From positions 4,496,056 through 4,560,055 of the forward strand of contig CM055093.1 of NCBI GenBank assembly GCA_029204225.1: a stretch of DNA of 64,000 bases. Direction: 5' to 3'. Position numbers and translations under genes: made by a program. Under the pieces are notes generated by a model that saw only the letters and a list, made by a program, of their open reading frames with translations, did not search any database and was not told the origin of the DNA. This document shows, piece after piece, positions 13,037 through 63,557 of the stretch (positions are counted from its first letter, which is position 1; each line of letters starts with the position of its first letter). Source of the DNA: Diphasiastrum complanatum (Eukaryota > Streptophyta > Lycopodiopsida > Lycopodiales > Lycopodiaceae).

Positions 13037-13111
<75 letters not shown>

Positions 13112-22967: not shown

Positions 22968-22970
<3 letters not shown>

Positions 22971-23017
<47 letters not shown>
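22971..23017. repeat. (CT)n microsatellite in hAT copy I
   Basis: Uninterrupted CT for 47 bp. hAT copy II has a much shorter, imperfect GA tract at the homologous reversed place (60089-60110). Confidence 0.95.

Positions 23018-42380: not shown

Positions 42381-42425
<45 letters not shown>
42381..42425. repeat. (CT)n tract between LINE-H and LINE-A
   Basis: 45 bp of CT: tail of LINE-H and 5' flank of LINE-A. Confidence 0.95.
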
Positions 42426-42429
<4 letters not shown>

Positions 42430-42576
42430 TGGAAAAGCGATCGAGTGATCTGAAAGCGGGGAACATAAAAATGGTTCTAGAAAATCCTCTGATGTAGGTT
42501 CCCAAAGATCCTCTGTAGCACAAATTCCATTCAAGTGGCCAGCTTCTACCTCCATCGCTACTGCTAGGATGGTGGC

Positions 42577-43640
42577 TTGCTAGCCTCCATGGCAAAAAAT
42601 AAGGGGAGCCCTCGCTCCCCTCCTATGTCCGCCACCCCATCGCTATCTACCCCTACCCCTACCCCTACCTACCCCTCGCTGGCCCCTCCCATCCCCTCGC
42701 TTCCTGATCATACATCGCTGCCTACCTCTCCTACCCCCTCGCTGGCCCCTTCCATCCCCTCGTTGGCTGTCCATCCCTCGCTGGCTGTCCATCTCACTCC
42801 CACCCCCTCGCTGCCTGCTCCCACCCCCTCTATGCCTATACCCACTCCTCCTGCTCCCACCCCCTCGCTGGCTCCCTCTGTTCCTTCTACATCGTTGGCT
42901 GCCCAGCAGGATTCACCCCCCTCACATCTTTCTTGGCCCTCTCCTCCCTCCTAGGTTCCCCTGCCCCCTCTCACTATCCCCTCTCATTCCCTAAAGGAGC
43001 CTACTCTCCTACCGAGGCATTTGAACAGTACCTCCTCTCTTGCATAGAGCAGATTGCACTGGAATCTAGCTATCTAAGGACTGAAATGGGCCAAATGAAA
43101 ACCACAATACAAGCTATGGCAATCAAGAAGCAAACTTTGATGGCCCGGATCATCTCTTTGGAAGAGGCCTTGAGCAAGAAGGACGAACCAGCCAGCACCA
43201 CCAACACAAAGATCCAAGAAGTGGAGGAACAGATTGAGCAACATAAGGCGGAGACCAAAACATGGGCCTCTCTATTCAAAGAAGACGGTAAAGAGAGTAC
43301 ACACTTTCAATAGCGTCATCTCAGCGACCATATCTGAAGAAGAGATGCGGAAGTATAAATCTATGAATGTTCGGGTGCAAGGCATTGAGGATACTAAGGC
43401 TCCAATTACCGAAGCAACCAGTTTCCTCACAGATACACTTTCCCACCATCACAACGGAATGGAAAGAGCGTGGAGAACTAAAACAGATCCATCTACACTC
43501 ATCATACGGTTCACGGGAATAGAGGGAGGAAGGTTTTCAGCAAAGCCAAAGCATTGGGCAAAAGGGTGGTCTATCAGGAGGCCTGATACATTGAGCCTCA
43601 AAAATCTGAGGCATAGGGATTTGGGCCCCCCGGACTTAGG
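42577..43640 (+). pseudogene. LINE-A ORF1
   Basis: The start MASMAKNKGSPRSPP resembles that of LINE-D (MARRTRGSPCSP). A long Pro/Ser/Thr-rich N-terminal region (PTPSLAPSIPSL-type repeats) follows, then in a second frame a coiled coil (LRTEMGQMKTTIQAMAIKKQ; EEQIEQHKAETKTWASLF). A third frame has the RRM-like core (YKSMNVRVQGIEDTKAPITE; RAWRTKTDPSTLIIRFTGIE). Frameshifts near 42945 and 43290 break it. ORF1 presumably binds LINE RNA. Confidence 0.85.
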
Positions 43641-43667
43641 AGCGGTTCGGGGGCCCTCACAAAGGCA

Positions 43668-45817
43668 TTGCGGTTGAGTTTATGGAACTGCAATGGTATC
43701 CACTCTTCAGCCACAGCGGGAGATTTTAGAGATTTTTGTACTACAAGGGATATTCTTATACTTACAGAGACGCATGAGAGTCCTGAGAGAGACTTCCTTG
43801 CATTGAGGGATTTTGCTGGCTTTCTACCTGCAGGGGGAAGACAAGGGCACTAACTAGTCGCGGTTCAGGAGGTGTTGCTTGCTTATTTCGAGACTCTCTC
43901 CAGTCATGGGTCGAGTTACCACACACTGACGAGCAGGCTCGCTATATATGGATCAAGTTGGACCATAGGCTGATGGAGTTAGATCGTGACATTTTCATGG
44001 CTTCCCTCCAGAGACATCAGCTTTCGCCTCAGAAGAGGAGTCACCTTTCATGGATATTTCATCGGACATTATACATATGAGGATCGAGAATATATTCTTC
44101 TAGCGGGGGACTTCAATGCCAGAACTGGGTCTAGGCAAACAGAATTTCACAGAGCAGCAGATGATCCACAGCGGATACATGCTCTTGATTGTGATAATCT
44201 TGGTCTTATACGGCGATCGACGGATGCAGTGGGTCCAGTTACATCATATAGGGAGCAGATGCTTCAGTTGGGCGAGGCTCATGGACTGGCCTTTTATAAT
44301 GGCCTTCTTCAGCTGCCAGGCTCTGGTGACTACACTTGCTTCCCACATAGTGGAGGACATAGCATCATTGACTATTTCATGGGTTCACCGTCTCTCCTTC
44401 ACTCCATTTCATCCTTATCTGTACACCGCACCACTCTTTCTGATCATTCGTATCTCTCCCTCTCTGTCGATCATCTCCCCATCACGCATATCGTATCTAC
44501 CCCTACAATGAAATCCACATACCGCTACACTTTGCATAACACACCACTCTACAGAGAAGCCCTCTCTGATCTCCTTACCTATTTCCCACATGAGCATACT
44601 CTAGAGGAGCAGTCCCTCTTTCTTGTCCAGACCATCCACACTCTAGGAATGCATCCACCTCCATTAGAACCTCATATATACTCACTCCCATCTTCCTCAT
44701 ATGGCCAAAACCATATCTCGTGTCTACCATAGAATCACCAAGAAAAAGAAAATTGTATACGAGATTAGCCAAGGTAAGAAAATGATGGATCTCCTCTTTA
44801 GTTCCTCTTCAGGTTCATATTGTGACTTTTATACAGAGGTTGGATGATCTTCAGGACGGGGGTACACACCATGTTGTTGCGGCTCTATCCTCATCCCGAC
44901 GCCTACAGGGACACCTTTTCTCATGGTATTCCCAGGCCTGTCGTCTCCTCTCCACATTGGGTATCCAGATCACTGACCTACCTGCAGGCACCCACCAGTA
45001 CATCAGAGGACTCCTCTACAGATCATATCTTCATATCACTTGGCAGGGTCCATTGGGGACCAAGAGTGAGTTTTATCGTACACACTTTCTATCTCTTGAT
45101 CCAGCTGGTTGCCCCATAGTATCTGGTTACTTGTTGAGGAGTATATCACACAGATTGCGGATAGAGATGGGTCAGTTTCGGATTTCCTCACATCAGCTGG
45201 CCATTGAGACCGGCAGATACAATGGCACCCCACGAGAGGACCGGCTTTGTAGCATGTGTTCTATGCATGAGATTGACGACGAATCACATTTCCACTTCAG
45301 ATGTCCAGCCTACTACGAGATTCGGGGGAGGTATTATTGCTTGTTCAGAAAGCACCCAGCTACACTTTCTGCCCTGATATCTTATGAGGACCCCATGATC
45401 TGGGAGATGTCAGACTTGAGGAGGAGACTCGATATTGATACACATTCCTTGATACAGTTGAGCATCAGTGAGTGCATATCCCGTCGGAGACAGAGATCCA
45501 AGGTACCCATAGGCTACGATTCAAATGGAGAGGCCGAGATTCCAAATTCCTTCATACATCGGCAGCAGAGGCCATGTCGACGGCCAGAGAGACAGTTAGC
45601 TATCAGGCCACAACCCAGAGCGACACAGCAGCAGAGACGACACCAACAACCTACCCGGCGGCAGAGGTCCATGGCACATCCAGTGACACCTTCACAACAT
45701 ACCATTCACCATTTTTTCCAGGCTGATAGGCATCATGATATTTCCAGGCTGTTGGACCCTGACTGGGCCAGCCATCTTTATGCATTGTATTTGCAGTTAT
45801 TGTTTATAGATGATTGA
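43668..45817 (+). pseudogene. LINE-A ORF2: endonuclease plus C-terminal domain
   Basis: APE-type endonuclease motifs: RLSLWNCNGIHSSATAGDFR, DILILTETHESPERD, YILLAGDFNARTGSRQ, then STIMDYF-like SIIDYFMGSPSLLHSISSLS and TTLSDHSYLSLSVD. The last pair are the SDH-type catalytic motif. After the deletion, an open 331-codon frame carries RLRIEMGQFRISSHQLAIET, GRYNGTPREDRLCSMCSMHE and FHFRCPAYYEIRGRYYCLFR, then a Gln/Arg-rich tail. No FVDFRKAFD or YADD motif remains. Confidence 0.87.
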
Positions 45818-46022
45818 GCTTTAAGCTCCTAATCTATGTGCACACTTGACATGTACCTTTTCTGAGTCCTATGTACCTTAGGGTATTCAAGGACATTAAT
45901 AAAATCTTTATTTCTTTCTCTCTCTCTTGTCTGAAGAGCATTTCCTATTCATATGTCAAACGAGAGAGAAAGAGAGAGAGAAAGTTGTATTAACGTCTAT
46001 TAATGCCAAAAGGCATATAAGA

Positions 46023-46529
46023 CCAAATAAGTACATCTCAAGTGTGATAAATACTGAAAGGAGCATATAAATGTCTCCATGTACAAACAACAACTACTAG
46101 CTAAAATGATTGGTCTATCAAGACCAGACAAAGTCTCTAATCTCTACTCTGCCCTCCAAACCTGGAAGTCTGAGATATGGTACAATGGGGTGTCGTGCAA
46201 CAATACTGTACAATATAATAGCTGTCCGAACTGTAGGGTAGCTCATGTCGCCACAGGACCACCACAGGTTGTCCTCAATCCTCGCTTTCTTCAGTAGTGG
46301 TCCTATGGCGACATGAGCTATCCTACAGTTCGGACAACTATTTTATTGTACTGTATTGTTACACGACAACCCATTGTACCATATCTCAGACTTCCAGGTC
46401 TGGAGGGCAGAGTAGAGATTAGAGACTTTGTCTGGTCTTGATAGACCAATCATTTTAGCTAGTAGTTATTGTTTCTACATGGAGACATTTATATGCTCAG
46501 CATTTATCACACTTGAGATGTACTTATTT

Positions 46530-46531
<2 letters not shown>
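46023..46531. repeat. Large foldback of two LINE 3' UTRs (235-241-bp arms)
   Basis: 46023-46263 and 46297-46531 are reverse complements at roughly 90 percent by eye, around a 33-nt loop. Both arms carry the LINE 3' UTR string TATCACACTTGAGATGTAC. The left arm is minus-oriented and runs out through the TATGCCTTTTGGCAT hairpin to a GA tract (45962-45983); the right arm is plus-oriented and passes straight into CT (46532). A transcript would form a long hairpin. Confidence 0.88.

Positions 46532-46586
<55 letters not shown>
46532..46586. repeat. (CT)n tract before LINE-B
   Basis: 55 bp of CT, at once the tail of the right foldback arm and the 5' flank of LINE-B. Confidence 0.95.
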
Positions 46587-46590
<4 letters not shown>

Positions 46591-46596
46591 GTGGAC

Positions 46597-46715
46597 AATG
46601 GAGCGATCTCTGAGGGGCGGATCTCTGTCCTGGAACGGACCTCTGTCTTGGAGCGGACCTCTCTCTCTCACACCTGGAGCGGACCTCTGACCTGGAGCTC
46701 TCTCTCTCTCTCATC
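46597..46715. repeat. 5' monomers of LINE-B
   Basis: Units close to GGAGCGGACCTCTGACCT (about 18 bp) recur about six times with drift and short CT interruptions. The same units open LINE-C at 51847-52080. They precede ORF1 by about 480 bp and may be promoter repeats. Confidence 0.75.
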
Positions 46716-47198
46716 GATGGTGACTGTCTGATCCTTCTCAGCATGGATCGATGCAATTCTGGAAGCATAGATTGAATTTTCTGTACTTCTTGTAGCGAGG
46801 CAGTTCGTGTTTCCAACATTTCTGGTAGAAAATCGGAATAAGACACTTTCTGATACACGAGTGCCGCTGATGATGAAAGCATGAATAAGCGATTGACAGC
46901 ACCAAAACACCTTCAGGGAGCAGCGATGAGGTGATGCTCTCACTGTGCTCAGAACTAGTGCTTAAGTTGAAAGCCAACGCTCAGATATTGCTTAGAAGAG
47001 CAGTCACGGAAGTAAACTTGCATTTGCTTACGATCCAGGATTGCGGATCCATGTCTTGAAGCCCGGATCCTCTTCTGTGGAATGCGATGTCAGAGAAGCG
47101 TCGCTGCAGCTGAGTGATGAGCCTCAAGTGAAAGTGAAGGAGTAATTGCTCAGAATTAGAGGAAGAACCATCAGGAGCAGCTCCAAGGCTCTGACGGG

Positions 47199-48005
47199 TT
47201 GGCCCTTCCTTGTCATACCTGGCCTTGTCCCTGCTTGGATATGGAACCAGCTACGCCTTCCTCTGCTCTCCCTCCTAATCCTTCTACTCCTCCATTTGTG
47301 CTATCTAAGGTCTCACCTCCAACTATCCCTCGCTCTATTCTACCGGAAGACGTTCATTATCATGTTGGGCAGTTGTATGCACTATTTTCAGAGGTACAAG
47401 GAGAAAATGCAGCACTCAAATTGGAGGTTCAAAAATTGCGGGATGAGATCAGCCAGCTGCGAACTCTATTACCATCATCTACTACGGATCTTGCAGAAAC
47501 TTCTAACAAGATTTCCAGCCTTGAGAAACAAGTAGAAGAGACGAAATCTTGGGCAGCACTGTTTAAAAAAGATAGTGGTATAATAGATTTGCCTACGAAT
47601 ATTTCAATTGACTCAAGATTAGAAAGTATGTTTTTGGAGCAAGAGAAAAGAGCCAAAAAAGCCCTTAATATTAGAGTGAGAGGCATTCCAAATGCTGGAA
47701 AACCTCTTGAGGAAGCCAAGGATTTACTTTGCAATAAACTCTCACACTCAACTGAGGGATTTGAAACTGCTTGGAGAGGCAAGTATGATGAGAATGTTCT
47801 ATTTATTAAATTCCAGTCTCTTGTACATCGTAACGCTGCCTTGAAACTTCGAGCCAAGCTGAAAGGGACTTTTATTTTTATGGACGATGATTTAACTCAT
47901 ACGCAATGGCTAGCAAGGAAAAAAATCATACAAGAAGCTAAGGGGAAAGGGCAACGGGTGGTGTTTATTGACGGCAAACCACGATACTATGAGCGCTCAC
48001 TATAG
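47199..48005 (+). CDS. LINE-B ORF1 (intact)
   Basis: 268 codons. A Pro-rich N-terminus (about 1-55); a coiled coil (about 60-125: YALFSEVQGENAALKLEVQK, LRDEISQLRTLLP, SSLEKQVEETKSWAALFKKD); then an RRM-like RNA-binding domain (about 150-215: KRAKKALNIRVRGIPNAGKP, FETAWRGKYDENVLFIKFQS); and a basic C-terminal domain (RAKLKGTFIFMDDDLTHTQW, QRVVFIDGKPRY). This matches the L1 ORF1p layout of coiled coil, RRM and C-terminal domain, with no zinc knuckle. An internal Met (MEPATP) at residue 15 is an alternative start. ORF2 may begin at 47968 and overlap its end. Confidence 0.85.
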   Translation: MALPCHTWPCPCLDMEPATPSSALPPNPSTPPFVLSKVSPPTIPRSILPEDVHYHVGQLYALFSEVQGENAALKLEVQKLRDEISQLRTLLPSSTTDLAETSNKISSLEKQVEETKSWAALFKKDSGIIDLPTNISIDSRLESMFLEQEKRAKKALNIRVRGIPNAGKPLEEAKDLLCNKLSHSTEGFETAWRGKYDENVLFIKFQSLVHRNAALKLRAKLKGTFIFMDDDLTHTQWLARKKIIQEAKGKGQRVVFIDGKPRYYERSL

Positions 48006-49290
48006 GGACTTGGGGCTCCCGGGCATGGGAGCAGCCCGAGATCCCCTGTCACTTCATATTGGCTTTTGGAATTGTAATGGCTTCCACTCTTCCTCTACAG
48101 GTGACTTGCAGTCCTATCTTGCTCGTACAGATATTTTACTGCTAGCAGAGACTCGTGAATCTCAATTTCGTCCTCTTCCTATGATGACAGATTTCTCTTG
48201 GCACTAAGTTTTTAGACCATTCCTACGAGGGACGACCTCCAGAGGCTCAGGTGGGGTGGCATGCTTATATAGAGACCAGTATAGTCATACTGTTAAGCTG
48301 GTTAAGAAAGATCCGTACGCTCGTTTTATATGGTTACAATTAGTTGGGCATTCCCTAGGCTTGGCTAGAGATATCTTCCTAGCAGTATGTTATATTGCTC
48401 CTTAGAGTTCGACATTTGCAGACTATGGTGGAAACCCTTTTCAGGTTTTATCAGAGGATATTTCTATCTTTTCTCCCTAGGGATATGTACTTTTGGCAGG
48501 TGACTTTAACGCACGGAATTTCATGCGATGACAGATTATCTCCAGCTTCGTACTTTGGATACAGGTCTTGTGCGGACATCACATGATGAGGCTACCCCCT
48601 CTACTACATTTGGTGAGCAGCTACTCAGGATTTCTGAGGCACATTCCTTGGTCATTCTGAACGGTTTATCACAGTGGCCAGATTGAGCAGCATTCACTTG
48701 TCATCCACATAGTGGCGGACATAGTGTGGTGGATTACTTCATTGGCTCACCAGCCTTGATTCCTCTCATTCAGAGCTTTACTATACTCTCTCCTACCCTT
48801 GCTGATCACTCACTGCTCTTACTCTCTGTTGGCCAGACCTCTCCCCTTCCAATCATTCGACCCAAGACGACTACACCTCACTTTGCTTTTCGTACACATC
48901 TCATCCCACGCTACATAGTCGCGCTCAACTCTCTTTTGCAAGATTTTCCCTTCTCCTCTCCTATTGAGCAACAGGCTAGCTTCTTGACGCTCTCCCTTAT
49001 ACAAGCCACCACCCAGGCCTTTCCCCCTAAGACATATCCCACTCATCGAAAGACCTATAATCGATGGTATGACCATGATTGCCAGGCCTTACATAAGCAA
49101 GTGGTATACGCCATGGCATCACTCTCCTAATCTTTTAGTACACGTACAAAAGCAATATCGTCATGTAGTTAATAAAAAGAAAAGAGACACTCTAACAAGA
49201 GATGGTCAAAAACTTATAGACTCCCTTTTCTTTTCCTCCTCTCTTTTCTGGAAGATTTTTTCTAAGAAATCTTCCTTACTTTCACCTATT
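47968..49290 (+). pseudogene. LINE-B ORF2 endonuclease
   Basis: The frame opens MTANHDTMSAHYRDLGLPGM and overlaps ORF1 by 38 bases. SLHIGFWNCNGFHSSSTGDL and DILLLAETRESQF are the first APE motifs (N, E). Past a TAA at 48205, shifted frames carry RGTTSRGSGGVACLYR, YVLLAGDFNAR, HSVVDYF-like SVVDYFIGSPALIPLIQS and PTLADHSLLLLSV. At least four stops or shifts occur. The phrase LG.PGMGA.RDPL before the domain is shared with LINE-D. Confidence 0.85.
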
Positions 49291-49301
49291 GATATTGACT
49301 C

Positions 49302-51540
49302 TTGGGTGAAGTATGCTACTTGCTTATACACTACAGATGCTCCGCCTATCCCTATCACTCGACCCGCTACTCTCTTTTTACCTCTGACCAAATTGAATTC
49401 GCGATTAGTAAAGCCCAATCCCATAAAGCGAAGGACGTCGACTCTCTTAACACAGACTTCCTCAAACCTGTCTCCCAGCTTCTCTCTCCTTACATTGCCC
49501 ACACTTTTAACTTGGCTGTTACCTCAGGCTTCCCCACCAACTGGTGCACGAACCTTCTCCATCCCATTCTCAAGGCTGGTGATCCAATGAACGTGGATAA
49601 CTATCGCACTCTCATGATCAGTCACACGATGGCAAAGCTTTATGGCTCAGTTCTGCAGTCTATGGTTGGATCCCAGGCGGAATCAAATGAGTTATTTGCT
49701 CTTGGACAGGCTGGCTTTAGACCCGGATACTCTACCATTGATCATGCATTTGTCTACGCTGCATCATAGAGGAGGCTCGACATCGGAGACAGAGAGTGTA
49801 CTGCTGCTTTGTGGATTTCCGCAAGGCCTTTGACTCAGTTCCACGGCACCTGCTACTTCAGCGCTTATCTTTACTTGGCTTCTCACAGGATATCATTATG
49901 GCTATCAGCGCCTTATATGAGAGGGTTTTAGCACGTTTCAAAGATGGCAGCAGCTGGTCGCCTTCTATCCAGAGCACAGTTGGAGTCAAGCAGGGATGTC
50001 CACTCTCTCCCACTCTTTTTGCATTGTACATTGATGATCTAGAGTGGATCATCAAGGAGGAGGGGGGTGATGGATGTCCTCTTGCTGATGTTATAATTCC
50101 TATCCTACTGTATGCGGATGATGTGGCATTGATATCCTCTACAGCCTCTGGATTACAGCGACATCTTGATGCTCTATATGGTTTTTGCTTAGTGTGGGGC
50201 TTGACGGTGAATATTGCTAAGACCAAAGTTATGGTGTTTAACACAAATCGGCAGCATATGAGAGATGACGCTTTTTATTATGATGCACAACAGCTGGAGA
50301 TTGTTACATCATACACCTATCTAGGTGTATTAGTCACCGGCCCCTTACTCACTTTTCGCTAAACTGATCTATATCGCCTGCGTAAGGGGCATGCTGCCTT
50401 GGAACATATGGAGAGAGTGTGTACTACTTACCATATTCATGATCCTACTACCATAGACCACCTTTTCTCTAGAGTAGTCTCACCTGTGGCTATGCACTCG
50501 GCGGAGGTCTGGTGCCCAGGGATGTCTCAGAGTACTTGGAGAGACATCACTCGTCTGCAGATCACCATATTAGGGAGGATGATTCGTGAGAAGCCGTCAG
50601 TTCCTAATGAGATTCTTTTAGCGGAGTTCGCCTCACTCCCCATGGTGGTAGAGGCTATGTTTCAGATTGTTACCTTTCTACATCGACTTGAGACCATGGA
50701 TACTCACAGATACGTGAGGGTAGGCTTACTTCTTCTCAGACTATAGTTGGACAGCAGGCTAGGTCTTCTTGGTATGGTAATGTGGTGGCTTTCTTTCAGT
50801 CATGAGGCTTCTCGATGCTGGATCTCCCATAGGGAACTCATACATTTATCAGACAACAGCTGTATCGGAGATATTGTCACATAGTATGGGATCGTCTTGA
50901 CCATGAGAGAGTCAAGCTTACCTTCTATGGCGCACATATCTTACGCAGAGACAGTTTGGGACCCCCTGTTAGACCTTTATATCTCTCTCTTCCTCTTTCT
51001 TTTGGGCTTCGATACAGATTGGGACAGTTACGAGTCTCTTCACATCAGCTTGCTATTGAGACAGGCAGATATTCAGGCATTTTGAGAGAGCATCGGATAT
51101 GCCAGATATGCACATTGGGTGTAGTGGAGGATGAGTTTCATTTGATCTTTATATGCCCTACATACTATGAGATACGTGGCCGATATCACTGTTTATATTG
51201 TGACACCCCTATTACCCTCAGTACATTTTTGGAGTATCAGGATCCCAAATGTGTCGGCCTTTTACTACGAGAGATGCTTATGTTGAGAGCCTCTTTGCTA
51301 CCATCGGAGAGTATTATTGATTCTAGCCAGCATCTCATTACTAGCTTCTTTCAGAAGTGGGAGCGTGATGACCTATTAGATGATGAGGCAGTCATAGCGG
51401 TGAGGGCGAAGGCCCAGCGTGCTCAGCCACCACCTCTTGCCAGATCTACGCGCACCTCTAGAGCTACCAGAGCTCCTCGATCACAGCCCACAACTGCTAT
51501 GGGTATCAGACGCTTTTTTTCAAGATTGATATTTATCCTT
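49302..51540 (+). pseudogene. LINE-B ORF2 reverse transcriptase and C-terminal domain
   Basis: Shifted frames supply HPILKAGDPMNVDNYRTLMI, SHTMAKLYGSVLQSMVGSQA, LGQAGFRPGYSTIDHAF, YCCFVDFRKAFDSVPRHLLL, LYERVLARFKDGSSWSP, VGVKQGCPLSPTLFALYIDD, LLYADDVALISSTASGLQRH and WGLTVNIAKTKVMVFN: RT blocks with both catalytic boxes (FVDFRKAFD, YADD). A thumb-like stretch follows (AMHSAEVWCPGM...), then the cysteine motif RICQICTLGVVEDEFHLIFI, CPTYYEIRGRYHCLY. The NYRTLMISHTMAKLYG block differs from the PISL-type block of common plant L1 elements. Confidence 0.9.
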
Positions 51541-51829
51541 TTACTTTCCTCAGCAGAGCAGGCGGTTAAGCTCTTGCACCTGTACCCTCTTCAGAGCTGG
51601 AGGTTAAGCTCTTGTGTATCTGCTCTTTTTATGCATTTTATGATTCTATATTGGCTATGTCTTTTCCTAGCTCGAGAGAGTTCTATTTTGTCTTTTCCAT
51701 TTAGACTAGTGTTTTTTATTATGTTGTCCGACATGGACAATAATCCTACGAGACATGTACTTATTCATTCTGTCTTATGTGCCCTTGGGCACTCAACAGA
51801 CATTAATACATTTTCTTTCTTTCTTTCTT

Positions 51830-51846
51830 TTCTCTCTCTCTCTCTC
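51830..51846. repeat. CT tract between LINE-B and LINE-C
   Basis: 17 bp of TCTC directly between the LINE-B 3' tail (CTTTCTTTCTTT) and the LINE-C monomers. Confidence 0.9.
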
Positions 51847-52080
51847 GGAGCGGACCTCTGTTCTTAATACCTGGAGTGGACCTCTGTCATTAATACCTGG
51901 AGCGGATCTCTGACCTGGAGCGAATATCTGACCTGGAGCGGATCTCTGAGCGGCGCGAATCTGAGCAGATCTGAGCGAACCTGGAGCGGATCTGAGAAGT
52001 GGGTCTGAGCGGACCTGGAGCGCAGTTCTAGCGGACCTGGAGCGCAGATCTGGACTGGTGCTGACACCTGGACCAGACTC
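51847..52080. repeat. 5' monomers of LINE-C
   Basis: Ten or more degenerate units of the form CCTGGAGCGGACCTCTGA or CCTGGAGCGGATCTGAG, some separated by TTAATA. They are homologous to 46597-46715. Confidence 0.8.
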
Positions 52081-52189
52081 CTGCTGACGTGACCTACAGG
52101 GTCGTGCTACAACCACTGTCCTATGGCTCCACGCAACAAAAGAGGGGGAGGTAACTCCCCCCACTCTCCACCACGGAGACTTCGAACAA

Positions 52190-52694
52190 AATATCCAGCC
52201 TTGAGAAACAAGTGGAAGAAACGAAGACATGGGCAGTGCGTCTCAAAAACGATGGTAAGGTTGAATCCTCAAGCTTGATTCAACATGCATTTGTGAATTC
52301 AACACTAGAAGATGTCTTTTCCAAGCAAGAAAGAAGGGCTAAAAAAGCCTTTAATATCCGGGTTAGAGGGATTTCTGACGGAGATAAGCCCATTGAAGAG
52401 GCAAAAGAGCTGCTTTTAACTAAGCTCACACACACCACGGATGGATTTGATACACCTTGGAGAAGTAAGTTTGACACTAATGTCTTGTTTATCAAGTTTC
52501 GCTCTATGAACAGCCGCAACGCAGCTTTACGCCTTAGAGCCAAATTAAAAGGGACCTTTATTTTTATTGATGATGACCTTACACACACACAATGGCAAGC
52601 CAGGAAACAAATTATCCAGGATGCAAATGCAAGAAATCAGCGGGTGGTTTTCATTGAAGGCAAACCAGAAAATTTTGATAAAATTTCTCAATAG
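52190..52694 (+). pseudogene. LINE-C ORF1, N-terminally deleted
   Basis: SLEKQVEETKTWAVRLKNDG, ERRAKKAFNIRVRGISDGDK, FDTPWRSKFDTNVLFIKFRS, AKLKGTFIFIDDDLTHTQWQ and QRVVFIEGKPENFDKISQ align throughout with LINE-B ORF1 from residue ~108. The Pro-rich and coiled-coil halves have been lost by a deletion ending near 52185. The remaining frame is open to its TAG. Confidence 0.85.
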
Positions 52695-52739
52695 GGATTC
52701 GGGCTCCTAGGCAAAGGAGCAGCCTGAGATCCCCTAAGC

Positions 52740-54281
52740 CTTTACATATTGGTTTTTGGAAATGTAATGCCATACTATCATCTTCAGCAGGTGATTTCCA
52801 TTCTTTCATGCTGAAATGTGATATCCTTTTGTTAGCAGAGACTCATGAATCATTATATAGACCGCTCCCATCCATACAAGATTGCACCTAGCACTCAGCG
52901 CATCGGCCCTTTGTGAGAGGGAAGACCTCCCGTGGTTCTGGTGGTGTTGCATGTCTCACCAAGGATGTTTTCACTTCTCATTTTAAACTGGTCAAAAGTG
53001 ATCTATTTGCACGTTTTATTTGGTTTCAGTTCTTTGGTCACTGTTTGGGGCTTTCTCAGGACCTCTTTCTTGCAATTTGTTACTTTCCACCACAGACATC
53101 ATCTTTTGAAGATTTTGGTGGTGACCCTTTCCAGGCTCTCTTACATGATATAGTCAGCTTTGCACAGTGAGGCCTTATTCTTTTAGCAGGGGATTTTAAT
53201 GCTCGTACAAGCATCAGGCAGGCTGAGTTTCATGCAGAGAGTGACTTTCTACAGGTTCACACTTTAGATATGGGCTCTGACAGGACCTCACAGGATGCAG
53301 ATACTCCAACTACCCACTTTGGAGAGCAGCTGATTGGTTTAGCATAGGCTCATTCCTTAACCATTTTGAATGGCCTTCCTTGCTGGCCTTCATCATCTTA
53401 TTTTACCTGTCACCCACATGGAGGAGGACATAGTGTTGTTGACTACTTCATTGGGTCACCGGCTTTGATCCCATTTCTTCATACCTTCCACATTATACCT
53501 CCTACCAATTCTGATCACACTCTCCTACTTCTATCCCTTGGACATCATAGTACCACAGTCACAACACATGGTCCCACTCATCACCATCGCCCGATTTTCT
53601 CCCCATCTGGTTTTTCCCTTTACACCGAGTTCCTAATTACTTTTCTCCATGACTTTCCCTTCACCTCCTCAGTTGACCAACAAGCTGTCTTTTTATGCCG
53701 ATCTCTTTTGCAATATGCCAATACTGCCTATCCTTTGAAAACCTTCTCTTCGCATAAACACACCCACAACAAATGGTATGATACAGGGTGCTACCCACTA
53801 CATAAACAAGTTGTTTACGCTAGATACCACTGTCCTGACACCCTAGCCTTGAAACAAAAAGAATATCACAAAGTGACTCTGAAAAAAAAGACAGCTTATC
53901 TCAAGTCCTTTGGGACAAAAACTTGTTGATGCTATTGCCTCCCCATCCTCCCATTTCTTTTGGCGGATGTTCTCTAAAAACCCTTATAAACCCGCTCCTA
54001 TTGCTATTGAGTCATGGATAAATTATGCTCCTAAGCTTTATACAGTTGACTCTCTTTCCATTTCTCTTTCCCCACGCCCTTAAGAATTCACCCTCTTCAC
54101 CCCGTCCATGGTTGAAAGCGCCATCCAAAATGGTCAATCCCAAAAAGCCACTGATGTTGACCTCCTAAGTATGGACTTCCTAAAATTAGTTGCTCACATT
54201 ATTGCCCCATACATTTCACATATCTTTAACCAATCTGTCATCTTCGGTCTCCCCACATCATGGTGCACCAACCTTCCTCAA
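52740..54281 (+). pseudogene. LINE-C ORF2 endonuclease and RT start
   Basis: Pieces: LHIGFWKCNAILSSSAGDFH (Asn-Gly of the motif changed), LLAETHESLYRPLPS, RGKTSRGSGGVACLTKDVFT, ILLAGDFNARTSIRQAEFHA, HSVVDYFIGSPALIPFLHTF, NSDHTLLLLSLGHH and KWYDTGCYPLHKQVVYARYH. RT-side PSMVESAIQNGQSQKATDVD, FLKLVAHIIAPYISHIFNQS and LPTSWCTNLPQ reach the gypsy-2 junction. Stops at 52890, 53168 and 53347 and shifts near 53925 break it. Confidence 0.87.
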
Positions 54282-54726: not shown

Positions 54727-54754
54727 TTCCCTCTTCTCTAAAAAAATTCCTTAT

Positions 54755-55627
54755 CTAAGGAAGGAAACCAGGGAATCTCATTTGAAGGTCAAGTTCCTTT
54801 TCCCAAGTATCATCATCCTCGGAACTTCCTTTCCAACGAACCAAGTACTTAGTTACCTGTCGATTTCTGAGCCCACGTTGACGTACGTCAACAATGGCCT
54901 GTGGTTCAGTAGGTACAAAGGATGAGAGGTCCTCCAGCTGAATTAAGTCCTCCTGAGGCATCAAGTCATCCTTTCCACCAAGTCGTTCCTTTAAACGACT
55001 AATGTGAAAAACTGGATGTACCTTAACACCTTGAGGAAGTTCCAGCTGGTACGCATTCCGATGGAGTTTCTTTACTATAAGGAATGGCCCTGCATAACGA
55101 GGTGACAACTTAGGACATTTTCCAATCCTTAGTACCTTAGAATCTTTTGGAATTCTAAGATATACCCAAGCCCCCTCCTCGTAGACCTTAGGTTGTCGCT
55201 TTTGATTAGCGTAAAACTGGGCTCTTTCCTGAGCCGTTTTTACGTTTTCGCGAGCAACAAGCAACATTTCTTGCATATCATGCAGGAAATCTACTGTTGC
55301 CTTCACCTTGAGGCCTTTGGGGCCTTTGAGGCCCACTGAAATGGGAGCCCCAGGCTGGAAACCATACATCAGAGAAAATGGACTAAAACCCGTCGCTGAG
55401 TGCTTTGCGCTGTTATACGCAAATTCAATCATTGGAAGGTACCTTTCCCAATCCGACTGCCTTCTGGAAACATATGCCCAAAGCATGTCTTCCATAGACT
55501 GGTTTGTCCTCTCTGTCTGACCATCCGATTCAGGATGATCTGATGACCCCAAACTCAAAGTGGTCTCTAATTTCTCAAAGACCGCTTGCCAAAATTTGCC
55601 AGTGAACTTTGGGTCTCGATCACTAAC
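54755..55627 (-). pseudogene. Gypsy-2 pol 3' part: integrase core end and chromodomain
   Basis: On the minus strand: VSDRDPKFTGKFWQAVFEKL (55627-55568), then after a small frame change near 55558 SLGSSDHPESDGQTERTNQS (catalytic D and E), ATGFSPFSLMYGFQPGAPIS, VYLRIPKDSKVLRIGKCPKL, SPRYAGPFLIVKKL, HPVFHISRLKERL and the chromodomain VTKYLVRWKGSSEDDDTWE. Frame 55558-54755 is open to the end of pol. Sequence beyond 55627 is not gypsy. Confidence 0.92.
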
Positions 55628-56115
55628 TCAGTAGGCATCTTTAGAATAGATAAGGTCCAGCCGTATGTGGCGGACTGTTGCTATGTAACTTTTGGCGGTT
55701 TAGTTGTAATGTTATCTTGATACAACGGCTGAATCAATATATAGTTGTTTTTTGAGCAACGCGAGCCTGGTCATGTGAAATGCAATCTCTGTAATTTTTT
55801 TAAGTGCAAATGTAATACATGTGTTTATGAAATGCGGTTGAGGTGTAGGGGTAATTGTTGTGCTCATTATGTAGGTGCATTTATGTGAAGCTATCATTCA
55901 CTTCAATCAATATTAGTTGAAAATAAGATTCACACACACACATAGAATTTGACATAAAATTGAAAATACAGCATCACATGTACAGAGCGACATACGCACA
56001 ATGTGCAACAAATAAAGTACGCCAAACACTGTATATAATGTGAAAAATGATCTGAGTACAATGGTAGACCGTCTGCTAGAGACAAACTACTGAAACTAAA
56101 ATAACAGAGCCACAA
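55628..56115. other. Non-coding flank of the minus-strand transposase gene
   Basis: No domain or element end recognised; a short (CA)n run lies near 55931. It is probably the 3' untranslated side of the gene at 56116-58796 and the second edge of the inversion. Confidence 0.5.
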
Positions 56116-58796
56116 TCAATGCTCTGGCTCTGACTCAGACGAATGCTCTGGAGACAACTCAGGGCCCCGAACTGACTCTCGTAGCCGATATCTCTGCCTG
56201 TCTGGAACTGGCATGGGCTGTGTATCTAAGGAGGAGGACTCGTCACTAGCATCATCCCAATCTGCCTCCGCATCAGCCCCCAAACAAGCCAAACCAACAA
56301 CACCTGCTCCAGCTGGCTGTAATCCTGCACCTCTAGCTGTACCTGGAGCCCTGCGTGGTCGTCCTCTCTTCCCTGGCAGTTTCTGTGCCTTGCCTTTCTT
56401 GTTCGATGCACCCTTGGGCCTTCCTGGTCTCTTGCGGACAAGAGGAGCTATCAATGCCTCATCACCCCCATGCAAATCACATGGCTGGCTAGGCTGGGCC
56501 CAAGCTGAGGCCGGCTGGGATAGGGAAGCAAAAGAGGGAACTCCCTGTGCACTTGAGCGAGGAGGATGAGCTCGTGGAGTGTGTGCCCGATGGGGCTGCT
56601 GCAGGTGGAGGAACTGGCTGTGCAGGAGGCGAGTACAACGGCGATATGTATTGAAAGGGGCGCTGCGGTGGCCGGTATTGGTACATCCTGGGTGCTGCCA
56701 AAGGGGGAGCTACTGGAGTGGGTGCTGCCAAAGGAAGAGGATGTGGAGTGGGTGCTGCCACTGGAGGAGGAGTTGGAGGAGCCACTGTGGATGTGGGCGC
56801 TGCAAGAGAAAACCTGGGCACAGATGGTAGCCTGCCATGGAGACCTGGTGCTGCAGAAGTGGACGACGATGGAGGGGCTGCAGGCCTGAATGGCATCGGT
56901 GGCACTGGAGGAGCTGTGCGGCGCACATATACCCTCTGAGGAGCTGGAGGAACTGTAGACACCTCATGCAGCTGCTCTGGCTGGGACTCTGTGTATGGCA
57001 TGCTGGCAAGAGATGAAGGGGGTGCCCTGACACTCGGCATCTGCTTCGCCTCTGAATCCAATGTGGCAATTAAGTCGTCCAGCTGGGCATCTGAATACAA
57101 ATGCTCTGGGCTCTGGGCCTCATCCTGTGCACCATCCCCTAAATCATCCTGTGCACCATCCTCTGAATCAACCCATGCCTCATCCCGTGCCTCATCATGT
57201 GCACCCTGTAGACCCTGCATGTCCTCCCAATCTGTGCAATCAAAGTCATCTAGTGCCTCCTCTGGTGTGTTGTCATAGTAACGGCCATGACTCTGTGCTG
57301 CACGCATCCAAACATCTGCGGGACCGGCATCTAAACCACTCTGCCCTCTATCAAGAGCCTCCTCCATCATGTCGACATAGGTAGGTATGCCACTGGCCCC
57401 CCCTGTGTGCCCTGCTTGTCTCCCGGTATAACCTGTGCCATGTGCCCTACCTCTGCCGCGTGATGCACCTGTGACCCCTGCCCGTGGCGTGTACCCTGCA
57501 CCTGTATGGTCTGCCTCATCTCTCTCTAAAAAACAAACTAGCAAACACTGAAAAGATAAAGAACAATTACAATACTGTACCGCTTACCTCTCTGGCTGCA
57601 AGATGGGCAGCTGCGGGAACTGTCCGATCCGGTCCATGAGCTCATACACCAATCCAAGTGTGGACCCCTCGCTGTCAGCCATGCGGAGCACAATGTAGAG
57701 TGGTCGAAGCAGTCCTAACAATGTCTGTGCATCCCTCCAGAACTAGTCTCCCCTCACCGTGGAAGAAAAGTGCTCCCCATCCTCCGTGCGCTGAAACGTA
57801 CTGGCACGCCAAAGATCAATGGCAACCATCTGTAGAAGTTGTGCCCTGCACCTAATCAGACGGTCGATGACCACCAGGTCGAATGCAAAGCGTGTGGGGG
57901 CTGGCTTACGGAGGTTCAAATGGCCAAACACCCGGAACATGGCAAGAACACGCCTCTTCCTGGTGACAAAAAAGAGGGCCTCGCGGACGATGGCTTTAAC
58001 CCAGGGAAGTGCACCTATGTCCCCCATCAAAAGGTCTATGTCGTGCGCTACACAGGGGGTATGGACGATGTGAGGGAACTCTCTCTCTAGCAGGACACCC
58101 ATCTAAACGCAGTTGGTGGCATTGTCCGTCACCACCATAACGACATGCTGGGGGCCTATGGACAGGATGGAACACCTAATGACATCGTACATGAACTCTG
58201 CAGATATGACTCTCCCCCCCCTACTGCAATCCACGGCTCTCATAAACTGTGTACCCATGCAGCTGGAGACCAAGATGTTGAGGATCGGCCTCCTCTTGAC
58301 ATCAGTCCATCCATCGCACATATGTTGCATCCATATGTGGCCCAGTAGCGGCGTAGAGGCTCCATCTCTCTAGACAAGGACTCAACCCTATCTCTCAGCA
58401 TGTGTGTGCGGACAACCTCTGAACCAGGGACTCTCCAGCTAGGGCTGACAGACTGTGCAAGGCAGAATGCCCTTTTGAAGGGCTCAGAATCGGTGATGGC
58501 AAAAGGTAGGTTCAGCTCGTAAATCAAACTGGCCACGGCCTGTGTGGCCTCTCTGTCCATGTGCGGCTGATGCGCGCCGCGAATGGTCTGCTGCACATGG
58601 GCTCTACCTGGTGGACGACGGGTGGTGGACCTCCAACACGGTGCACCAACCGTGACGGGAATGGACGATGACGCGACAGGCTGGGCACTAGTGGATGCAT
58701 CGGCTGTAGACGTGGAATGGGGAGAGTGGGATGCACTGGCAGGGATGGGTGCAGCAGCATAAGTTTCGTTCCCTCAATTTCCCTGAGCGGGCTCAA
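56116..58796 (-). pseudogene. hAT-like DUF659 transposase with Pro-rich, AT-hook C-terminus
   Basis: Minus-strand order: DREATQAVASLIYELNLPFA, ITDSEPFKRAFCLAQSVSPS (58560-58440); MEPLRRYWATYGCNI and a shift to CDGWTDVKRRPILNILVSSC, YDVIRCSILSIGPQHVVMVV, TDNATNCV (to 58103); FPHIVHTPCVAHDIDLLMGD, LRKPAPTRFAFDLVVIDRLI and WRASTFQRTEDGEHF (58080-57743); LLRPLYIVLRMADSEGSTLG (to 57600). After a possible intron an acidic, then Pro-rich stretch (57544-56490), and finally KRPGRPKGASNKKGKAQKL, PGKRGRPRRAPGTARG with two AT-hook cores (GRP), ending SSESEPEH. DUF659 is the hAT catalytic region. The dimerisation motif seen in copies I and II is missing here. Stops at 58102 and 57743. Confidence 0.75.
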
Positions 58797-59927
58797 GTGT
58801 ACTCACGCACATCGCTGCTCAATTGCAGGCACTGTCTGGGGCCGTTCGGCGAGGACCTTGCACATGTCTGAGAGAACAGGCTCTTGCGTGTATCATGGTG
58901 GGAGAGCTACGGCACTGGACAGCCAGACTCGAGGACGCTCGCGATCCGAGTCCTTTCACAGGTATATTGCCTAATCTCATTCATCCAACCAGTTTTCGCA
59001 TTTTCTCTACAAGGTCGGTACTCACTCGAGTTGTTGCCAATTAATGCAGGACTGTTCTGCTTGCGTGTGCGAGCGGAACTGGTCAGCGTTCAGCCTTGTT
59101 CACACGAACAGGCGGAACCGTCTGACGACTGAGCGATGCAATGACTTGGTGTACTGCCCCCCCACACCAACACTAAGGTGGTTCGACGCATCACGGACAG
59201 CATGAGGGCAGGAGGCACATGCACCCTATTGCTGCATGTATATTTGTTGCTCCATCGTTTTGCTTTCGTATTAGTTTAAGACATTCAGTTTAATGCCCTC
59301 ACGGTTGCTTCGGCTATTCTCACAAATGATTGACTTCTGCATGTCAATCCGAACGGTATCGTCTGCACTCATCGGGATTGACAGAGGTTGATGCAGACGA
59401 TACCGCTCGGCGTGCTCTGCGGGGTGATCCCGAGGATGATGCCGATGCCGATGAGACCACCCCCCTTCATGCTGACGTTCCATTGCCCTCCTCTGATGAT
59501 GAGCCCCACATATGATTCAGATGAGACAGTCGACCTTGTAGGGGATGGTCCACGTGCCCCACCCAGTACTCCCGCATCACGCCCCCTTTCAAATGATGGC
59601 TGGTCAGAGTTTGCGAGGGAGACAGAGGCTGCCGCCCAGAGATAGATTGTGCAGAGACGCTTGAGAGCATCACAGTCAGTCGGTCCTTCTCAGAGACCCC
59701 CTTGTGGCAGAGGGAGACCCCCAGGCATGAGTGTACCACAGAGGGTTCCTTCTGGCAGACCTAGAGGCAGGCCAGCCAAGAGGGGACGCACTGATGATTT
59801 TTCTAGTCGTCTCTTGGCAGGCGTTGGCCCAGACTTGGAGGAGTCCCAGATGCCAGACTTTGTATTTGACACCCCCGAGGATGCATCTAGCACGCAGAGG
59901 AATGATTTTTTTAGCACAGACTTGTAG
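58797..59927 (+). pseudogene. hAT copy II transposase, C-terminal exons
   Basis: Plus-strand homologue of 30545-29485. The exon near 58831-58965 has HCLGPFGEDLAHV, a TGA, then WWESYGTGQPDSRTLAIRVL and donor GT. The exon from about 59049 has DCSACVCERNWSAFSLVHTN and LTTERCNDLVYC. The exon from about 59385 has VDADDTARRALRGDPEDDAD, then after a shift YDSDETVDLVGDGPRAPPST and GWSEFARETEAAAQR. The tail (59649-59927) is QRVPSGRPRGRPAKRGRTDD, an AT hook, ending NDFFSTDL. The N-terminal and DUF659 parts are absent; at 58797 the sequence switches to the opposite-strand transposase. Confidence 0.8.
59354..59405. repeat. Perfect 14-bp stem hairpin in hAT copy II
   Basis: CGGTATCGTCTGCA (59354-59367) pairs exactly with TGCAGACGATACCG (59392-59405); loop 24 nt. 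It lies at the intron/exon border before the acidic exon; copy I does not have the exact stem. Confidence 0.85.
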
Positions 59928-61271
59928 ATATTGATACACACAGACTATCATGTATACTGGCATCAGATGAGATGTATATATTTTTTTACAGTTTATTCGT
60001 GTCATGCTAGTTTATCATGGTTGCTTACAAATGGATAGCTTTGAGAAATTTGAATGGTTAGTTAGAAATCGTTTGCTCCGTGCAAGATGAGAGAGAGAGA
60101 GAGAGATAGAGACCAGCACATCTGTATCTCTCATAACATATGCATCATGTTCAACCATTCAACATAACACGCTAAGCCCGACACCGTAACAAATGGAACA
60201 GTTAACATAACACCCTAAACCCTAACAAATCATCATAAATCCACAACCCCACAGCCATAACCATCAAAACAAGCAGCAACCATAGTCATCATAACAATAA
60301 CCATAAACATCATGAACCCCACGTCCTCATTGTGTCGTAGGCATTGCAGCACTTGTGTAGAATGCATTAATGGTCCAGGAATATAGTCCACAGGTTCGTG
60401 ATCCCGATACGAACCCAATGGATCGAGCCTGGCTTGATTCGGGTATCGTTCGCTCAAAATGGCCCTTCGACGGGAGAGAAACGCAATTAGGTCACGTGAA
60501 ATGGACTAGTTTTGCAGCTTTCCGTCCGACGGCCCAGTTTTCCAAACGGGATCCGTTTTAGGTGCTGTCTGTTTCAGCCAGTGGACAACCTCAATAGGAA
60601 CCTGTGGGAACAGACAGGATGAGGAACGAACGGACGGCCGGCTCAAATCGTCCATCTAAAGTTCGATGTTAAACAGGGCTTCAGGGACACTTTGTCTGGT
60701 CAGGACCTGAAAACTGGGAGATGTTTCAGAGCCCCCGTGTTGGTACTATGCCATAAGTAATTAGTAAGCCGTTGAAGTTCATCCGGGGAGAAATCGATCT
60801 CGTCAACCGAGCCATAGTAGTGTGTAGGTCTCGTGGTTCCCTATAGTGAATGACACAGTTTTGCATAAGTTATTAGTAAGCGGTTGAAGTTCGTCCGGGG
60901 AGAAACTAATCACATCATATAAGACATAGTAGTGTGTAGGTCTCGTGGTTCCCTGTAGTGAATGACAGTTTTGCATAAGTAATTAGTAAGTTGTTGAAGC
61001 TCATCCGGGGGGAAACCGATCTCATCATATAAGACATAGTAGTGTGTTGGTCTTGTGGTTCCCTATCTTGAGAGCTTGTACACATTTTAGCATCATGTAC
61101 ACTGGTATCAAAACAGATGTGTATATTTTTTTACAATCTATTCGTGTCATGACCAATTTATCGTGGTTGGTTAGAAATGGCCAAGTATGTGAAATTTGAA
61201 TGGCTGGTTAGAAATGGTTTGAATCACACAATTTTTATGGTTGGTTAGAAGTGGCTTGCTCTGTGCAAAAT
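59928..61271 (+). mobile_element. hAT copy II, distal non-coding region
   Basis: The 3' flank of the transposase gene. 59930-60110 (ending in a GA tract) is partly repeated at 61080-61283, suggesting a second partial copy in the same orientation. 60220-60660 matches hAT copy I in reverse. No genes. Termini are not resolved. Confidence 0.7.
60752..61075 (+). repeat. Three tandem ~110-bp units in hAT copy II
   Basis: Units start CATAAGTAATTAGTAAG at 60752, 60864 and 60974 and contain GAAGTTCATCCGGGGAGAAA and TAGTGTGTAGGTCTCGTGGT. A reversed unit start lies at 21120-21156 and a unit end at 21496-21520 in copy I. Such subterminal repeats are candidate transposase-binding sites. Confidence 0.85.
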
Positions 61272-61486
61272 GAGAGAGAGAGAAGAAGAAGAAGAAGCTT
61301 TATTAATGTCTTTTCCATGCCAAAAGGCATATAAGACTAAGGAAATACATGTCAAGTATGTGGTAACCCTGGAGCGTGTAAACGCCTCCAAAAACTGTAA
61401 TAAAGAAAAAAAAAGAAACATCTAGTACAAGTTAAGATAACTACATAAATGATAATCTCTGTGCATGGTAGTCAAATGTGTCCATG

Positions 61487-62120
61487 TCAAGATTCCAGGT
61501 CTGTATTGGCGCTGTAGAAGGATGTAATGAGAGCTGTAGCATGAGGAAGTGCAGGAGCCCGCTGACGTCGCCTGTGAACAGGAGCATGTCTGGTAGCAGT
61601 CCTGGCATTAAAGTTGCCAGTGAGAAGGACATAACCCCGATCTGTAAATCTGACAATGTCAGCGGAGAGATCAGTAAAAGGAGAGCCAGAGCCGTCTGCA
61701 AAGGAGGACGACTTTGGAGGGAAGTAGCAGGCAGCAATGAAGAGATCCCTATCCAAACCGATAGCTCGCCCAGTGATATGAGCCCATATGTATCGTGCCT
61801 ATGCATCATGTCGCAGAAACTCTATAACTGGTTGTAATGACTCTCGATAAAGATATGCAACTCCACCCGAACCTCTGCCACTCGCTGATCGAGTCTCTGT
61901 CCTATAAACTGAATTCCATCTGTAACCTGCAAATGTGGGTAGTCCTCTCTCTGGGCTCTCATGTGTCTCCATAAAAAATAATATATCTCTGCCTGTGATG
62001 AAGTCGGTAAGATCTCCAGCCGTGGATGATGAGTGTATGCCATTACAGTTCCATATTCCAAGATGTAGGTGGTGTGGAGGGGGTCCCGAGATGCTCCCAT
62101 GCCCGGGGACCCCAATTTCC
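61487..62120 (-). pseudogene. LINE-D ORF2 endonuclease fragment
   Basis: Minus-strand pieces: LGIWNCNGIHSSSTAGDLTD, ILFFMETHESPERGLP, SASGRGSGGVAYLYRESLQP, IGLDRDLFIAACYFPPKSSS and YVLLTGNFNARTATRHAPVH. The motif GDFNAR reads GNFNAR, losing the Asp that in APE nucleases contributes to catalysis. Sequence then becomes unrelated and passes into the 3' UTR, so RT is absent. Confidence 0.82.
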
Positions 62121-62179
62121 TATAGGTTGTTTCCGGATGCAGGACCATCAAGGTACCGAACAACTCCATCACGATAGAT

Positions 62180-63463
62180 TGCTCGTCTTCCGGTCGCTTT
62201 GGCGCTTTGGAGTGCTTGGCATCTCTCTTCAACTTGGATATAGGTAAGGTCATCATCCATGAAGATTTTCTCTCAATTTAGTTCTTTTCCGCAAGGTTGC
62301 CTTACGATATGTATGTGACGTGAAGCGGAGGACCAAGGTAGTGGTGTCTTTCCTAGTACGCCATGTTGTATCCAAACCATCTGCATTGTGTCCTAGGGTA
62401 GTGCATAAAAATCCTTTTGCTTCGTCAACGGCATTTTGGGTGTCCACTATGCCTCGCACCCTAATATTGAGAGCCTTGGAATCTCGAAGTTTCTCTTCCG
62501 TAAGAGTAGCGGAAATGAATGATGAAAAAGGGGGAGACTTACTTCCGTCATCGGCTGTCCAAGGTGGACTGGTAGCTTTGTTCCTGGTGATGATAGAAGC
62601 CCATGTGTTCGTCGATTCTTTGTGTTGGTTCAGTCGTTGTTCCAGATCTTGAATCTTCATCTTTGTCTCTTCTTCCGGCTGGGAAGCATATTTATTTTCC
62701 ATTTCTGTCCGGAGCTGTTGGTTCTTTGTGCGTAGGTGGATGATTTCCAGTTTCAGAGTTTGCACATCTGTCTGCAATTCTTTCAGTTGGTAGGCTAGAA
62801 AATTCTCGAAGGATTTGGAGGTGTAGTCGGCATGAGACAGGAAGGGGGTGTCTGGAGCAGCGTTGGTAGAGATGGGAGTCGAAGGGACAGGGGATGAGGG
62901 AGGGTTAGAGTGGCATTGTTGTTGCGTAGCAGTGGGGGCAGGTGTCTGTTGCGCAGCAGGAGGGACCTGTTGCTCAGTAGCAGGATGGCATGTGGAGGGG
63001 GAGTGGAGAGAAGGGGCAGCAGGTGGGCAGGACAGGGCAGCAGGTGGGGCAGAGGAGGAGGGCGGAGCAACAGATGGGTAGGGCAGGGCATTAGGTAGAT
63101 CAGAGGAGGGCGAGTGGGCAATAGGTGGAGCGAAAGAAGGGGTGGGCAGGGTAGTGGGTGGAGCTGAGGAGGGCAGCTGGTGGACAGTGGACAGAGGATG
63201 GCGTTGGTGGGCATCAGACGGAGCGGAGGATGGGTGGGCAGCAGATGGAGCGAAGGGAGGTGGAGCGGAGGAGGGGAGCGAAGCAACAGGTGGAGCGGAG
63301 GAGGTGGCCGAAGCAACAGGTGGAGCGGAGGGGGGGGGGAGCAGTAGGTGGAGCGGAGGGGGGTGGAGCGACAGTAGGTGTGGATGGGGGTGGGGAAGAG
63401 GATGATGGGGGGGGGTCGGGGAGGAGCGGGGGAGCAAGGGCTCCCCCTGGTTCTACGAGCCAT
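62180..63463 (-). pseudogene. LINE-D ORF1
   Basis: An open frame of 394 codons (63437-62253) has a very long Pro/Ser/Ala-rich N-terminus (about residues 1-200), a coiled coil (LAYQLKELQTDVQTLKLEII, RTEMENKYASQPEEETKMKI, LEQRLNQHKESTNTWASI), and the RRM-like core (RDSKALNIRVRGIVDTQNAV, GLDTTWRTRKDTTTLVLRFT). A shift at about 62258 moves to a frame encoding the C-terminal part (DDDLTYIQVEERCQALQS). The likely true start is MARRTRGSPCSP at 63463, one frame off because of a G/C homopolymer near 63410. The low-complexity head is unusual for LINE ORF1. Confidence 0.8.
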
Positions 63464-63508
63464 GGAGGTGGGAGAGGAGGGCGAGAGAAGAGAGGAGGGG
63501 GAGGGGGG

Positions 63509-63510
<2 letters not shown>

Positions 63511-63543
<33 letters not shown>

Positions 63544-63557
63544 TGAGAGAGAGAGAG
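63511..63557. repeat. (GA)n tract at the LINE-D 5' end
   Basis: GA with two AAGT interruptions; it reads as CT in the LINE-D orientation. Confidence 0.93.

Follow-up and report, generated by a model that had tools for sequence, protein, structure and literature searches.

A LINE family of the clubmoss Diphasiastrum complanatum with a probable preference for insertion into CT microsatellites

The genome of the clubmoss Diphasiastrum complanatum (1.74 Gb) contains a family of long interspersed nuclear elements (LINEs), with two open reading frames (ORFs) and an apurinic-type endonuclease, that probably prefers to insert into (CT)n microsatellites in one orientation. This insertion is best read as target-primed, and the CT tail of a LINE is best read as a favoured target for later copies. 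Our analysis concerns a window of 64,000 nt (contig CM055093.1, positions 4,496,056-4,560,055), whose LINE copies H, A, B, C, D and a stub were compared with genome pieces from outside the window, designated by L-numbers. A genome search with 214 residues of the LINE-B C-terminal part as query gave 152 matches from the best 150 of 18,885 first-look candidates, and because of this number of candidates the family is probably large. The copies in the window and their tracts are:

13108..13188, minus strand: stub, an 81-bp 5'-truncated LINE with a sense CT tract on either side
41617..42380, plus strand: LINE-H, 5'-truncated, with the ORF2 C-terminal part and the 3' end (tblastn, 3' end profile)
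42381..42425, plus strand: (CT)22.5, 45 bp, the LINE-H tail and at the same time the LINE-A 5' flank
42426..45903, plus strand: LINE-A, with ORF1, endonuclease, C-terminal domain and 3' motif
45904..45928, plus strand: LINE-A pyrimidine tail with (CT)5
45962..46531, strand given as ".": inverted pair of LINE 3' ends between A and B
46532..46586, plus strand: (TC)27.5, 55 bp, 3' of the plus arm of the pair and LINE-B 5' flank
46587..51810, plus strand: LINE-B, with 5' untranslated region (UTR), ORF1 at 47160-48002, broken ORF2 (endonuclease, reverse transcriptase, C-terminal domain) and 3' motif
51811..51846, plus strand: LINE-B tail (TTTC)n(CT)8, also the LINE-C 5' flank, its 16-bp CT run ending at 51846
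51847..54280, plus strand: LINE-C, cut on its 3' side by a long terminal repeat (LTR)-type repeat starting at about 54281
61272..61297, minus strand: LINE-D tail, (CTT)n then (CT)6
61298..63510, minus strand: LINE-D, with ORF1, part of the endonuclease and the 3' end
63511..63557, minus strand: LINE-D 5' flank, CT-rich, including a 30-bp CT run

Full 5' starts stand directly behind CT in 7/7 cases, namely A, B, C, D, the L029/L017 copy, which comes from an arbitrarily chosen region, the second LINE of L033, and L059. An earlier note on this DNA had placed the first four (42426, 46587, 51847 and, on the minus strand, 63510) right after CT repeats, and the tracts indeed lie where it had claimed. 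Six of the seven have ORF1 matches downstream, and the L059 start was deduced from its distance to the C-terminal match. The 5' CT tract adjoins the 3' end of another LINE in A, B, C, L029, L033 and L059, though not in D. Four further starts behind CT (L040, L047, L048 and L053, with ORF1 confirmed in 4/4) were reached by following tails; having been found because of CT, they stand outside the 7/7 count. Truncated copies also break behind CT, as in the stub, in L075 (107-bp run) and in L088 (12-bp run, with LTR-like sequence upstream). Wherever the 5' flank was a CT/GA tract, CT was on the sense strand of the LINE, 10/10 times (A, B, C, D, L029, L033, L059, stub, L075, L088). The chance level comes from a background sample of 200 kb at arbitrarily chosen positions, including 4,926 bases of N, in which (CT)5 lies within 20 bases upstream, strand-specifically, at 0.42% of positions. 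This sample holds 26 CT tracts of at least 10 bp and 13 of at least 30 bp, and the genome is thus rich in such tracts; the long CT/GA tracts among L009-L028 are partly clustered, in L022 and L023. No match to the LINE was found in L001-L008. In the copy behind L040 (with L066) a start codon lies 1 base past the CT tract, with a frame open for 238 codons into ORF1.

These counts draw on two kinds of upstream fetch. At 20 apparent truncation points, the LINE continued upstream in 13, which are frameshifts or internal deletions; three ended at LTR-like sequence by eye (L079, L085, L086) and were left out of the truncated count, and four were clear (L072, L075, L083, L088). Twelve fetches placed by distance upstream of C-terminal matches yielded only L059 on a tract with a probable 5' start, and the other 11 probably miss the start as their copies are truncated or rearranged. 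Among those 11, tblastn finds parts of other LINEs in L057, L061 and L065, and L062 has a 3' end together with a weak match to ORF1.

At the 3' side, a profile built on the 40 bases that precede the tail gave 28 matches in all sequence examined, from which the repeated L017 hairpin and the duplicate L038 were removed and to which H, found with a longer profile, was added, leaving 27 distinct termini. Six of these are in the window (H, A, the minus arm of the inverted pair, B, D, stub), 13 in fetched flanks and eight elsewhere (L017, L029, L031, L033, L036, L059, L061 and L062, that of L036 being the terminus of an inverted neighbour). The 13 remained from 20 fetched 3' flanks, six of which lacked the query terminus (L036, L041, L042, L043, L051, L052), while the L038 flank equals that of L037 and was dropped. 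Because 13/27 termini are best hits of the B query, the flanks counted outside the window are weighted towards B-like members. Of the 27 termini, 23 continue into five or more CT units, which in L029 and L059 are preceded by a few copies of a different short repeat. A poly(A) tail, typical of flowering-plant L1 elements, occurs at 0/27, and a GA array follows 0/27. The 3' end profiles thus bear out the claim that A, B, D, H and the stub have CT-rich tails and that none ends in poly(A). CT stands on the sense strand at either side in all the tracts examined, never GA, and this fits priming by the (GA)n strand on a (CU)n RNA tail. Since TTTC units, varying in number, often open B-type tails ahead of the CT, part of the pyrimidine tail is probably element-encoded.

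Directly before the tail lies a conserved structure, located as follows in LINE-D:

61298..61337, minus strand: conserved 3' terminal hairpin with the motif ATTAATAAA

The same kind of hairpin and motif is present in B (51772-51810), A (45866-45903) and the stub (13115-13153). In an alignment of 18 chosen rows, 16 of them distinct, compared with 500 shuffles, the hairpin covaries: 93.8% of cells are paired versus at most 49.4% when the pairing is slid, and the eight cells changed on both sides were matched by 0/500 shuffles. Further pair types, one of five measures, were reached by 499/500 shuffles.

Many tails lead straight into another LINE. Seven of the 13 distinct fetched tails run directly or within about 30 bases into a LINE piece of the same orientation (L034, the weakest at E 2.2e-4, L040, L046, L047, L048, L050, L053), and six run into other DNA. 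Neighbours in a chain differ considerably, B and C sharing 66% DNA identity over 1.4 kb and A and B about 48% in the C-terminal domain. Simple tandem duplication was considered as the source of the chains and is out, because their members are too diverged. The earlier note explained the head-to-tail chain H-A-B-C by insertion at CT, and this explanation fits the divergence of the members. A and B are not directly joined, as the inverted pair lies between them.

A partial empty site was found for LINE-D alone. The repeat at 61092-61221 by its 3' side has copies at 59947-60075 and 23031-23160, 81-82% identical, and a bare tract stands in both paralogues where the LINE-D tail begins:

60089..60106, plus strand: bare GA tract, 18 bp, at a paralogue of the LINE-D 3' flank
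22970..23017, plus strand: bare TC tract, 48 bp, at the second paralogue of the LINE-D 3' flank

The putative empty site is a bare repeat on the one side that matches, in two paralogues. A different kind of evidence comes from L033:4350-5045, where about 700 bases, including chloride-channel (CLC) coding sequence, lie between a 92-bp CT run and a LINE 5' UTR. The best PDB match of this coding sequence is plant CLC-a (E 6.8e-9), and Pfam Voltage_CLC matches at E 1.7e-5 with 24.6 bits, just under the 24.8 cut-off. Because coding sequence separates the two, CT is the edge of the whole L033 insertion rather than the start of the element. The fusion likely arose when reverse transcriptase switched from LINE RNA to a host mRNA.

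These observations suggest how insertion might proceed. The conserved hairpin, an AAUAAA-like motif and the U/C-rich tail are observed in that order and would form the working end of the RNA. The (GA)n strand of a CT microsatellite would be nicked, and its 3' end would pair with the (CU)n tail and prime reverse transcription. A finished copy would thus stand between two CT tracts and show no visible target duplication, which is how the observed flanks look. Every new copy would bring a fresh CT tract as the next target, which may account for the observed head-to-tail chains. Choice of CT by the endonuclease and choice by pairing would be expected to look the same in sequence. It is an unlikely extension that the LINE carries and spreads its own target, with the upstream CT serving the newcomer as leader or promoter, as the open frame behind L040 might illustrate, and so helps to make the genome CT-rich; if true, a single repeat would act as target, as tail and in 5' control.

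Several results weigh against a preference for CT, or against parts of the case for it. Four of the 27 tails (L046, L050, L061, L062) are short pyrimidine stretches with no CT array, and an ORF1 match of another LINE follows the L062 tail. L037 and L038 share the same 3' flank at two places on C4 and differ in having 35 versus 9 CT units; therefore, CT length shifts after insertion. Three of six truncated breaks judged individually lack CT (H, L072, L083), and no CT lies upstream of the LINE-H 5' edge at about 41617. At 12/13 upstream edges of fragments, H among them, there is no (CT)5 within 150 bases. These edges come from the window, L017, L029, L030 and L033 and mark where similarity in protein or DNA stops; several have an LTR-type repeat or an inverted piece of LINE next to them. 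The single edge with CT is that of the second L017 piece, about 100 bases away from the tract. Since the 5' ends share no conserved terminal sequence, it is partly the CT tract itself that defines a 5' start. The LINE-D 5' flank matches neither paralogue, which makes the empty site one-sided. Just two hairpin pairs have double changes, a number reached by 71/500 shuffles, and the genome search gathered only members close to LINE-B. The tails and breaks without CT show either that the preference for CT has exceptions or that old copies have undergone rearrangement. The proposal in the earlier note that this lineage nicks or primes on CT is supported for insertion at CT (23/27 tails, 7/7 starts including four of the note's own, 7/13 new tails chained, and the bare-CT paralogues) but not as strict specificity, and its suggested survey of flanks on other copies came out in favour at 3' ends and full starts and against at 3/6 truncated breaks and 12/13 edges.

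Could these junctions have arisen without targeted insertion, LINE copies and other DNA having been joined by ectopic exchange or break repair within CT tracts? Such tracts are abundant in the genome and present on most LINE copies, one LINE-D flank fits paralogues while the other does not, as after exchange, and the many LINE fragment edges without CT show that rearrangement is common here. Against this, the stub consists of a short 3' fragment between two CT tracts, the CLC coding sequence and LINE form a single unit behind CT in L033, and chain neighbours belong to different subfamilies while keeping one orientation; we therefore consider such joining improbable. It is highly improbable that there is no element-specific targeting at all, with CT acting as an open landing pad for many elements or growing by slippage from pyrimidine tails. 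For transposable elements of plants and humans, microsatellites have been put forward as landing pads (PMC12477314), and tail length is indeed unstable in L037/L038. Nevertheless, CT is always on the LINE sense strand in the 10/10 5' tracts, a GA array never follows the 27 termini, and growth of a tail cannot place CT 5' of copies with non-LINE DNA upstream (D, stub).

Hardly probable at all is an element with CT built in at either end, as a CT-rich 5' leader and an encoded tail of CT. The recurrent TTTC units at the start of B-type tails and the C/T-rich leader of LINE-D would fit such an arrangement. However, truncated copies that lack the 5' end still stand behind CT (stub, L075, L088), host coding sequence parts CT from the LINE start in L033, and, by eye, the leaders past the tract have no terminal sequence in common. 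On account of the truncated copies and the L033 CLC case, we reject fixed CT on the 5' side. The earlier note had named CT inside the element as grounds for giving up targeting; this applies to the TTTC part of the tail, which is probably encoded, but not to the 5' side.

On its predicted proteins the element is a non-LTR retrotransposon, with a LINE-type reverse transcriptase and an apurinic-type endonuclease upstream of it. The reverse transcriptase matches RVT_1 (E 9.1e-25), R2 chains (from E 2.1e-20) and L1 ORF2 chains (from E 3.6e-14), scoring somewhat better with R2 structures than with L1 ORF2 in a comparison without clade-labelled references. The LINE-A endonuclease matches Exo_endo_phos_2 (E 1.1e-5) and Exo_endo_phos (E 0.0026), both under their cut-offs, and residues 1-475 of protein P0005 (PF03372 + PF00078) match the L029 copy (E 7.4e-66). 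ORF2 thus comprises the endonuclease, the reverse transcriptase and a C-terminal C-C-H-C stretch, the last a motif seen by eye. A protein search with ORF2 found 407 relatives, and the first 17 of the best 120 share 34-47% identity. ORF1 is modelled, at low confidence, as a long helix followed by an RRM-like part, and coiled-coil type proteins dominate among the best 60 of its 168 PDB matches.

Not all copies retain the reverse transcriptase. LINE-A and LINE-D gave no tblastn match to its core, with the 3' end kept in both; it seems to be absent, with the 3' end kept, from LINE-A, LINE-D, L031 with the window start, and L061. Such copies would be internally deleted and possibly moved in trans. 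The arms of the inverted pair (46024-46158 and 46401-46530) are 94% identical; the tail of the minus copy, at 45962-45985, is GA (CT in the sense direction), and a CT tract lies on the right side. Its plus arm lacks the terminal hairpin, and a second inverted joint of like kind is possible at L033 about 3602-3731. The stub is flanked by GA runs at 13037-13107 (71 bp, as reported before) and 13189-13230, the latter measuring 42 bp rather than the 43 bp first given. A putative exon at window 13200-13360 (minus) resembles LST8 of the TOR complex, and the stub with its CT tracts lies about 9 bases beyond a possible splice donor. Beside LINE-D is a 110-bp tandem repeat (60752-61066), and a nearby repeat family also occurs at 22401-23254 and 59852-60642. 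Probable solo LTRs were seen by eye at L029 about 1480-1960 and L019 about 1606, with internal CT of 62 and 17 bp; the one in L029 sits within a LINE 3' UTR.

The closest animal precedent known to us is Kibi, a LINE with an apurinic-type endonuclease that resides in TC microsatellites and was not named in the earlier note. It is reportedly a Tx1-group LINE of fish specific for (TC)n, and we know of no chains on its own tail; the study by Kojima and Fujiwara (2004) is among the references of PMC6515669 and PMC3747384. Likened by description only, Kibi and the clubmoss LINE share the TC/CT microsatellite and the type of endonuclease, Kibi being an element of fish. Plant L1-clade LINEs also have two ORFs and an apurinic-type endonuclease. 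Their tails are (A)n, unlike the 27 clubmoss termini: in Table 3 of PMC3747384, 224/233 flowering-plant L1 families end in (A)n, none in another repeat, and nine in none. According to the same source, as far as we draw on it, a conserved 3' hairpin with compensatory changes is present in one monocot lineage, as in the clubmoss. Among green-algal L1-clade families 8/15 end in a non-A simple repeat (Table 3 of PMC3747384); these repeats are CATA, CA, CAA and TAA, with no CT, and insertion into them is unmentioned in the sections of that paper used here. Among animals, LINEs targeted to microsatellites are on record, Togen being one (PMC4640811), and KibiFr1 appears in PMC6515669. Togen resembles the clubmoss LINE in being microsatellite-specific; unlike it, according to PMC4640811, Togen is a (TG)n-specific, NeSL-related element of fish from the lineage with a restriction-like endonuclease. 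Our literature searches turned up no microsatellite-targeted LINE, CT-targeted included, for land plants, although this does not prove that none exists. PMC3747384 raises the question whether 3' recognition was stringent in the ancestral plant LINE, and a family in a clubmoss that ends in CT instead of poly(A), has a covarying 3' hairpin and chains on itself would bear on it. Such a family also makes priming by pairing between tail and target directly testable. Finally, Bov-B/RTE elements, on the account in PMC13295347, are similar in that their microsatellite-like 3' ends may form pairs with the target at the nick, and differ from the clubmoss LINE in their visible target duplications with a Tn-TA signature.

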